The position numbers were made by a program, and so were the translations under genes. DNA of 64,000 nt from Pelagibacteraceae bacterium AG-325-J13 (lineage in GTDB: Bacteria; Pseudomonadota; Alphaproteobacteria; Pelagibacterales; Pelagibacteraceae). Positions 1-27,396 of this stretch are shown piece after piece; position 1 is the stretch's first letter, and every line of letters starts with the position of its first letter. The DNA lies in NCBI GenBank assembly GCA_003282835.1, contig QBYL01000001.1:248001-312000 (forward strand). The letters are read 5' to 3'. The notes under the pieces are model-generated. The model saw only the letters and a program-made list of their open reading frames with translations, was not told where the DNA came from and did no database searches.

Positions 1-1
1 T

Positions 2-373
2 GAACCGACAAGAAAAGTTATCAAAGAAAAAAAGTTTTATTATAAAAGATACACAAAATTTAAATGTGAAAATCCTCAACCAAGATCTGTGAAAAAAGAT
101 AACAAATCTTCATCTGTAGCTGTATCGAATAATACTTTATCAAGAACTTTCAATTGTTCTTATTCAGGTGGAACATCAAAAATAAAAATAAGAGGAGCCA
201 CTGCTGCCGAAACTACCTCAGCAGGCGTTCTGATAACTTATTCTAATGTGAACTTGAGTGATAAAGGTGCATTTTCTTTAAGTGGATCTTCTAAAGATAC
301 ACGGGCATGGTTTATTGGTGCAGCATCCTTTCTATTATTAGATATTCAAACAATACCAGCTCGGTGTGATTAA
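2..373 (+). CDS. Hypothetical protein, 5'-truncated by window edge (frame open to base 2)
   Basis: The listed ORF 89..373 starts at an internal GTG; the same frame has no stop back to position 2 (EPTRKVIKEKKFYYKRYTKFKCENPQPRS...), so the real gene probably begins upstream of the window. Confidence 0.55.
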   Translation, partial: EPTRKVIKEKKFYYKRYTKFKCENPQPRSVKKDNKSSSVAVSNNTLSRTFNCSYSGGTSKIKIRGATAAETTSAGVLITYSNVNLSDKGAFSLSGSSKDTRAWFIGAASFLLLDIQTIPARCD

Positions 374-450
374 TTTTCTTTTCTCACTGTGCCCTATGTG
401 TGCCCAAAATAAAAAAAATTGTGAATTAATAAGTGTTAACGCCAATACGC

Positions 451-475
451 AGGGGCGTTCTGTTGCCAGGTGCCC
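451..475. repeat. 25-bp direct repeat of the tmRNA 3'-terminal segment (AGGGGCGTTCTGTTGCCAGGTGCCC), candidate att site
   Basis: Identical to 1736-1760, which lies inside the coding piece of the tmRNA gene. Confidence 0.85.
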
Positions 476-528
476 TTAACCTTATAACGTTATACAACAA
501 TTCTAGATCATAAAAAACCGCTATTTCT

Positions 529-1119
529 TTGCTGGGTGAGTCCGTATTGTGTCCAACAATATTGCGAGTTATGATGAGTCCAATGAATGAAGAATTTTAT
601 CCTTTTATAGCTTTTTTTTTAATTATTTTAGGTTGGATATTTTATTTAAATTTGGGAAATAAATATACTAATAATCAAAAGTTTTTTAAAAAGGGTCAAA
701 ACTTTAAAGATGATTTTGGTGAATACTTTGTTGAAGATATAAAAAAACTAGTCAAGCACGTTGAAATGTTACCAAAAAAAAACCAGATTAATATTTATGA
801 ATATGTATTAGCAGAACTAGGTAGGTATACAAAAGAAACAGCTAAGCTAAGTTCAGCTAGAAAAGCTGACAAAGTCTATAAAAAGTATCTTTTAGATGCA
901 GGAAAATTAAGAAGAAAAAATACAGATTTTGATTTAACGTATAAAAATCCAAAATGGCTATCCGTCACCATTTTTGAAAGTTTGTTAAGATCAGAGTCAA
1001 ACAAAATGTCATTTAATAATGGAGCTAAAATAAGAAAATATCTATTTTTAAAAATGAAAAACCTAATTCCTAATAATCATAACTTAAAAATTTTTTTAAG
1101 AATCAACAATATTAAATAA
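529..1119 (+). CDS. Hypothetical protein with N-terminal transmembrane segment (probable start ATG at 571 or 574 rather than TTG 529)
   Basis: 196-aa ORF; hydrophobic FYPFIAFFLIILGWIFYLNL followed by a Lys-rich soluble part; no family recognised. Confidence 0.6.
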   Translation: MLGESVLCPTILRVMMSPMNEEFYPFIAFFLIILGWIFYLNLGNKYTNNQKFFKKGQNFKDDFGEYFVEDIKKLVKHVEMLPKKNQINIYEYVLAELGRYTKETAKLSSARKADKVYKKYLLDAGKLRRKNTDFDLTYKNPKWLSVTIFESLLRSESNKMSFNNGAKIRKYLFLKMKNLIPNNHNLKIFLRINNIK

Positions 1120-1208
1120 AAAAACTTTTAGTGAAAGTTAAAAATTTAAACTAAATTGTGCCACTAACGTGCCATGAAATAGACCCTAATAAATTCAATG
1201 ATAGATGA

Positions 1209-1580
1209 GTGAAAAGAATCCTCTTATTAATTTTAATATTATTTCCATCAATAGTTTATGCAGATTTGGGATTAAATATTTATTGTCTTAATATTAAAAC
1301 AGTTTTAGGAGAAAAGCATGAACCGCTTCATTTTAAACTTGATGTGGTTTCTTTCCAGTATTTTGATAAAAATAAGAATAAATTTCAAACAATAGGCGTG
1401 GATAAATTAGAAGTTGGCAAAGATTATTTTTTTGCAAGACTTCCAGATTATGAATTAGGTTTTCAAACTACCAAGTTTGATGGAGTAGACGCTAGAATGA
1501 TGATGTCTAAATATGATTATAAGAATGATAAATTTTTAGATCATTATGCGTGCACTCCTCAAAAAGGCTATATAGATTAA
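1209..1580 (+). CDS. Small exported hypothetical protein
   Basis: GTG start; signal peptide-like N-terminus MKRILLLILILFPSIVYADLG; no recognised family. Confidence 0.6.
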   Translation: MKRILLLILILFPSIVYADLGLNIYCLNIKTVLGEKHEPLHFKLDVVSFQYFDKNKNKFQTIGVDKLEVGKDYFFARLPDYELGFQTTKFDGVDARMMMSKYDYKNDKFLDHYACTPQKGYID

Positions 1581-1714
1581 AAACAACCAGTGATAAAATT
1601 AATTAAAAGCTTTTTCTTATCAATTTTTCTCTCAATTTTTATTGGATTTATTTTAGCTTTTATCCTCTTCACTGTGACACCAGTGTGACCACTTTTTTAA
1701 AAATTATTGTTTAA

Positions 1715-1985
1715 CCGGAGTTTTGAGTCTTTTGAAGGGGCGTTCTGTTGCCAGGTGCCCCAAACCCCGTTACTTAATTAACAAAGTTAATTAAGCTGCA
1801 AGTGCATAACTTTCGTTAGCATTTGTGAATTGGCCCGTTACGTCGGAACCATCTCGTACGAAAGAATAGCTTTTAGACACCCGTCGATCCTAATTCACCC
1901 CCAAAAATTTTAATGGTGGAGGTGGTGGGTACTGCCCCCACGTCCGTGATGTTTATTACGAAATTCGTTTATCGTCATAGCTGGT
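1715..1985 (-). ncRNA. ssrA: Circularly permuted two-piece tmRNA (alphaproteobacterial type); acceptor piece ~1914-1985, coding piece ~1715-1902
   Basis: Minus strand reads ...GGACGTGGGGGCAGTACCCACCACCTCCACCA (T-arm plus acceptor 3' end with encoded CCA), an 11-nt spacer, then GGGGGTGAATTAGGATCGACGGG (tmRNA 5' end) and the tag GCT AAC GAA AGT TAT GCA CTT GCA GCT TAA = ANESYALAA* at 1791-1820. GGGGGUG can pair with CACCUCC. Outer boundaries are approximate. Confidence 0.93.
1736..1760. repeat. tmRNA-internal copy of the 25-bp direct repeat
   Basis: Exact match to 451-475. Confidence 0.85.
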
Positions 1986-27313: not shown

Positions 27314-27318
27314 TTTTT

Positions 27319-27378
27319 TTCTCCTTTTTTAGTACTTCGACGATATGTCAGGCGTACAATATAGTTCAAATGCCCGAT
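27319..27378 (-). promoter_or_regulatory. SAM-V-like riboswitch overlapping the metY ribosome-binding site
   Basis: Minus strand CGGGCATTTGAACTATATTGTACGCCTGACATATCGTCGAAGTACTAAAAAAGGAG immediately before ATG. Position and core resemble the SAM-V class described in marine bacteria downstream of SAM-II; recalled consensus, not searched. Confidence 0.75.
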
Positions 27379-27396
27379 TTTAATTTGAAAGATTTC

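Follow-up and report, generated by a model that had tools for sequence, protein, structure and literature searches.

The islands that integrate at the ssrA gene of Dehalococcoides are larger than the cassettes described here and bear a recombinase. Site-specific islands at the single-copy ssrA of this genus, among them the vcrABC island, have been described (PMC3146451). Streamlined aquatic bacteria have additive flexible genomic islands in which tRNA fragments recur, and the passages on fGI-2 of ‘Ca. Methylopumilus’ and Methylophilaceae (PMC10872708) and on fGI1 of ‘Ca. Actinomarinales’ (PMC7771536) describe gene cassettes added at tRNA-Lys or other tRNA genes, the cargo of fGI-2 being mostly uncharacterised proteins. 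Tycheposons, as summarised in PMC10872708, are cargo-carrying marine elements of 4-200 kb that use tRNA genes and have their own tyrosine recombinase, and CALIN are tandem integrase-less cassettes with integron attC sites that are moved in trans (PMC11389934). As regards SAR11, a comparison of Pelagibacterales with Actinomarinales describes both as entirely devoid of identifiable mobile genetic elements (PMC7771536), and a literature search that covered few subscription journals and preprints found no paper on cassettes at the SAR11 ssrA.

The window, the whole 64-kb stretch of DNA analysed (G000:C1:248001-312000), cuts with its left edge a tandem array at ssrA. What remains inside is likely the ssrA-proximal end of an array of small non-autonomous integrative cassettes that would each carry a complete attP and be inserted by trans-acting integrases. 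Locus L006 (C1:236001-252000) overlaps the window and extends to its left, window positions being L006 positions minus 12000.

Tandem cassettes at the 3′ end of ssrA

The window carries a permuted alphaproteobacterial ssrA on the minus strand (Table 1; RF01849 match at 2032-1733, E 1.2e-58), and the copy of the repeat at 1736-1760 is the 3′-terminal hairpin of its coding piece. The exact 25-bp repeat of this piece at 451-475, reported in the initial annotation, was confirmed and belongs to a longer alignment of 31 nt with 94% identity (451-481 versus 1736-1766). The paired TGTGnC motifs placed there 63 bp to the left of each copy were likewise recovered, at 388-405 and 1673-1690, and they are the only two matches to TGTGNCN5TGTGNC in the window, against a mean of 0.05 in shuffled sequences. 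Elsewhere in the window, a SAM-V riboswitch aptamer lies at 27318-27384 on the minus strand. Assignment of the genomes to SAR11 is based on this riboswitch together with the permuted tmRNA, the size of the genomes and what genes they contain.

A third repeat left of base 1, and with it the edge of a larger element on that side, had also been suggested, and extension of the sequence revealed three extra cores beyond the window (G000:C1 246933, 243822 and a diverged one at ~243400, L006:7399). The genome has five copies of the 24-bp ssrA 3′ end, all in one orientation with ssrA at the right end, which enclose three clear cassettes (3.1, 1.5 and 1.3 kb) and a decayed one of 0.4 kb; about 130 bp to the right of each distal core are conserved as well. 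The 3.1-kb cassette encodes a protein with a weak alpha/beta hydrolase match and one that reads as autotransporter-like, with no Pfam match, and the cargo of the other two consists of small and secreted-looking, uncharacterised proteins. The last ORF of cassette 2 begins with the 5′ coding sequence ATGAAAAAACTTTTAGCGATCGTGGTTCTGGG, common to an ORF of cassette 1. The signal-peptide-like start MKKLLAIVVLG is shared in this way by unrelated cassette proteins (L006:7942 and L006:11687) and also stands behind several end types in other genomes. No integrase lies in the 1.3 kb between the repeats, as had been noted, and no recombinase was found in the cassettes examined, which makes them non-autonomous at best. 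The earlier description of a decayed or cargo-only remnant is right about the missing recombinase and wrong about the remnant, the elements being complete two-ended cassettes. The internal doublet of cassette 3 is possibly a relic of two fused cassettes.

Table 1. Features at the left edge of the window (positions are those of the window).
Feature	Position	Strand	Basis and remarks
3′ part of last cassette 2 ORF (whole ORF 228 aa, start at L006:11687)	1..373	+	ORF list
ssrA-side doublet (probably arm-type) of cassette 2, TGTGCCC-TATG-TGTGCCC, period 11	388..405	+	pattern search
Core copy separating cassettes 2 and 3, duplicate of ssrA 3′ end	451..475	+	exact repeat
Type A end module at the distal end of cassette 3	476..582	+	94% identity over 137 nt of module query; conserved in dozens of genomes
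Distal-end doublet, TGAGTCC-GTAT-TGTGTCC	537..554	+	further TGAGTCC at 575-581
Predicted promoter TTGTGT-N17-TATGAT, overlapping doublets	547..575	+	start codon 7 nt after -10; transcript predicted to be leaderless
Cassette 3 ORF 1, 178 aa	583..1119	+	no Pfam family above cut-off
Internal doublet of cassette 3, before ORF 2, TGTGCCA-CTAA-CGTGCCA (TGTGCCACTAACGTGCCA), YGTGCC-type	1157..1174	+	no core near
Cassette 3 ORF 2, 123 aa, looks secreted (hydrophobic start)	1209..1580	+	no Pfam family above cut-off
Doublet of cassette 3 on the ssrA side, TGTGACA-CCAG-TGTGACC	1673..1690	+	pattern search
ssrA, permuted two-piece tmRNA, tag ANESYALAA	1733..2032	-	RF01849 match
Core at ssrA, intact gene 3′ end, presumed attachment site	1736..1760	+	exact repeat; single core at G026 empty site

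Across the family, 121 loci contain 296 cores, up to eight per array and none of them reversed. Half of the 158 genomes sampled (79) have two or more cores at ≤2 mismatches, some of these away from ssrA; the sample, mostly drafts and one per species, comprises 157 genomes chosen at ≥85% completeness and the window’s own (81%). The median cassette length was 976 bp in a first set of 98, and the core-adjacent end module accompanies the core in dozens of related genomes, with only weak matches elsewhere. The island is bordered by a mazG-like gene on one side and by ssrA on the other, and thyX lies past ssrA. In the complete genome G026 the site is empty, with only one core 9 bp after the mazG stop, and in G003 and G073 the same junction leads to a core, one cassette, another core and ssrA. 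The proposal of tandem integration sites in ssrA is therefore supported both by the further cores to the left and by the empty site in a relative, which had been predicted. Neither of the two patterns named beforehand as contrary to it turned up: related genomes do not carry the window’s repeats and ORFs in conserved synteny, and in two of them integrase genes do occur at ssrA (see below). Cores carry more mismatches the higher their rank from ssrA (Spearman 0.29, p 0.003, with the copy at ssrA itself left out), a gradient of wear suggesting that most new cassettes come in beside ssrA. In G194, G198 and G268 (L182, L183, L184) ssrA stands beside tRNA-Leu(gag), not mazG, and the ssrA-core arrays occupy other parts of the chromosome or contigs, which looks like relocation of ssrA or use of a second site.

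Twelve cassette families recur in different genomes, at differing ranks and with differing neighbours. The 148 cassette proteins scanned matched 69 Pfam families, of which the 25 commonest included restriction systems, DUF805, superoxide dismutase, plastocyanin and inverse autotransporter, and no recombinase; defence models also recovered restriction-modification components in the cargo. An integrase profile that recovered its positive controls likewise found no recombinase in 41 array loci.

Doublets with matching words at the two cassette ends

The paired motifs of the window belong to a class of doublets made of ~8-bp units with a period of 11, one helical turn, that occur at both cassette ends. 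They were found at the left end of 60 of 152 cassettes and at the right end of 64, where about two would be expected from shuffled flanks; the doublet of cassette 2 occupies the commonest left-end position of other arrays, -64 from the core. At the threshold used, 92 cassettes have none at the left end and 88 none at the right, and some short cassettes are devoid of modules; hence a fraction of the arrays may have decayed or may represent a different type. The words vary between cassettes (TGTGCCC, TGTGATC, TGAGTCC, TGCGTCC, CCCGTACA, GTGCGGAC, TGCCGACC, GACGAGT, TTCCGAA and others) in a conserved backbone, and the cassettes of a single genome have several different words.

The words at the two ends of one cassette agree with each other. 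In the 41 cassettes with both doublets (those below 300 bp were dropped because their two end windows overlap), agreement averaged 7.20 of 8 positions, versus 5.05 between different cassettes, and 30 of the 41 reached seven or eight matching positions, versus 10% for different cassettes. None of 50,000 permutations was as high, a count that serves only as a guide since related cassettes are not independent. Because pooling of all end types is a confounder, the permutation was also run within backbone type only, with a mean of 5.95 and again 0 of 50,000. Cassette 3 matches weakly, with TGAGTCC/TGTGTCC at its distal end and TGTGACA/TGTGACC on the ssrA side.

The agreement between ends bears on an alternative that we regard as unlikely though tenable, in which integrases inserted the cassettes long ago and these now spread by homologous recombination alone, through the conserved flanks (mazG, ssrA, thyX) and the cores. 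It would account for the presence of mazG and thyX around the island in most genomes and for cassettes that relatives have in common at up to 99% identity. However, the same cargo appears at different ranks and behind different end types (an endonuclease/phosphatase-type gene in L037, L053, L061 and L065, superoxide dismutase in L048 and L060), and homologous exchange alone does not require that the words of two ends be kept matched. Insertion by integrases and homologous recombination may both operate.

Most type A modules also contain TTGnGn-N17-TATGAT at a fixed place that overlaps the doublets, with an ATG usually 5-7 nt past the -10, a spacing from which leaderless transcripts are predicted. 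A general promoter scan of all modules was discarded as a guide, its scores being barely above those of shuffles (8.37 versus 8.15); only the fixed type A position stands out.

Integrases, recombinases and the proposed mechanism

Similar doublets accompany integrase genes. A search of 396 genomes yielded 12 arm-domain integrases of this bacterial family. Nine of them have a doublet at the start codon or shortly before it, in most cases with its own word, whereas 42 kb of other sequence gave three doublet windows. Of 17 integrases in a second set, which overlaps the first in part, 10 have one 31-36 bp upstream of the start (two windows elsewhere), and several of the others show, by eye, repeats of this kind with different spacing. 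In G092 (tRNA-Asn) and G215 (tRNA-Glu) an identical or closely similar word returns at the far end of the element, beside the tRNA gene. In Acinetobacter phage TRS1 (KX268652), TACGCCAA doublets stand on both sides of the annotated attP, one of them just upstream of int; the cultured pelagiphages HTVC131P, HTVC022P, HTVC109P, Ran and Hroenn have no doublets at int. Because of their presence at arm-domain integrase genes and around the TRS1 attP, the doublets of the cassettes are read as arm-type sites, and they are probably bound by integrases. The initial annotation had offered arm-type integrase or excisionase sites, of which the second fits less well.

Two integrases were found at ssrA itself. 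In G224 the doublet TTGGCGTCATGGTGGCGTCA stands ~56 bp past the ssrA core and precedes an integrase gene (330 aa, PF00589, phrog_1); the geometry is that of the cassettes, and the word, TGGCGTCA, differs from those of the window. The integrase of G616 is 52% identical to that of G224 and starts ~110 bp from the ssrA core, with no clean doublet (5/8). The readable sequence of both stops before the far border of the element. No integrase with the words of the window’s cassettes (TGTGCCC, TGTGACC) was found, and searches of IMG/VR and phage records, module patterns included, gave no attP form, phage or satellite with cassette ends. Eight IMG/VR contigs with the core (L077-L084), phage-like and T4-like by reading of their gene content, were rejected as attP carriers, as each has a complete two-piece tmRNA gene of its own, with a tag ending in ADENLALAA and a 3′ end equal to the bacterial core. 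These tmRNA genes could be alternative landing sites.

A different source of activity would be the host’s single Xer-like core tyrosine recombinase, moving cassettes in the manner of an integron with a distant chromosomal integrase gene. Of 296 genomes, 238 have a PF00589 recombinase, in most cases just one, and the eight inspected closely (L144-L151; 304-334 aa) have partly conserved neighbourhoods with glycosyltransferase-like and transporter-like genes. Their scores are far below the NCBIfam XerC/XerD cut-offs, and P. ubique has been reported to be without dif/Xer (PMC2731167), both of which leave room for another function. Nevertheless, judged by length and Pfam, these proteins have no arm-binding domain, yet there are several arm words per genome; integrases with that domain do occur at ssrA (G224, G616), and no Xer-like recombinase was detected in the window’s genome (81% complete), so we consider this source improbable. 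It is very improbable that duplication of an RNA hairpin or terminator for the sake of expression gave rise to the cores and that the doublets are a regulator’s operators, as the GC-rich hairpin of the core and the overlap of distal doublets with a predicted promoter might suggest, since this predicts neither the empty site nor doublets at the ssrA end, at integrase genes or around attP, although regulation may be an added role of the doublets.

Under insertion by integrases in trans, which we prefer, each cassette would run from a core through a distal end module (arm-type doublets and promoter) and the cargo ORFs to an ssrA-side doublet and the next core. Once excised and circularised, it would present one complete attP (doublet, core, doublet), which a phage-type tyrosine integrase supplied in trans could recombine with the 3′ end of ssrA. 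Such an insertion would rebuild the ssrA 3′ end, so that the next cassette could land there. Different integrases sharing one core and differing in arm words would account for each cassette bearing, at both ends, the word of its own integrase; the promoter would be used to express transferred cargo.

A broader reading, which we hold to be about evenly balanced, is that the 3′ end of ssrA serves the whole SAR11 family as a public docking site, in a role like that of an integron platform. Many integrases would use its one core and read fast-changing private arm words, and integrase-less, promoter-ended cassettes would swap cargo and be carried by any integrase able to read their word. SAR11-like genomes are very small, and docking at ssrA would show a way in which compact ocean bacteria still acquire and shed genes. 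Given extra cores in roughly half of the sampled genomes and a cargo that includes restriction systems and surface or secreted proteins, the site would be a concrete route of gene gain. The matched arm words may serve as a tag that points from a cassette to the integrase that moved it, which could allow hitch-hiker and helper to be paired on sequence evidence alone.

Comparison with described systems

The arrays have direct repeats of a gene end at both borders and an empty site in a relative, as integrative elements do, with probable arm-type sites on both sides of the core for ~40% of cassettes per end and no integrase gene of their own. They also have the variable cassettes, conserved flanks and repeated RNA-gene end of the additive islands of streamlined aquatic bacteria. 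The target differs, being ssrA here and tRNA genes in the passages on those islands, and these mention no arm sites, two-ended address, promoter module or integrase assignment. With the tycheposons, as far as they are outlined in PMC10872708, the cassettes share a marine setting, cargo, insertion at RNA genes and a presumed dependence on tyrosine recombinases; they differ in size (median 0.98 kb in the first 98), in using ssrA and in that no recombinase was found in them. Like the Dehalococcoides islands (PMC3146451), they occupy ssrA, here as ~1-kb units in which no recombinase was found. The modules of phrog_1 or Rci-like integrases, such as that of TRS1, have the same period-11 doublets flanking attP, one just upstream of int, but they encode the integrase, whereas the ssrA cassettes do not. 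CALIN are also tandem, with no recombinase in the array, and are moved in trans, as we propose for the ssrA cassettes; CALIN have attC, folded single-strand recombination sites, and the recurring sites observed here are ssrA cores with probable arm doublets, which would together form attP sites of the phage type.
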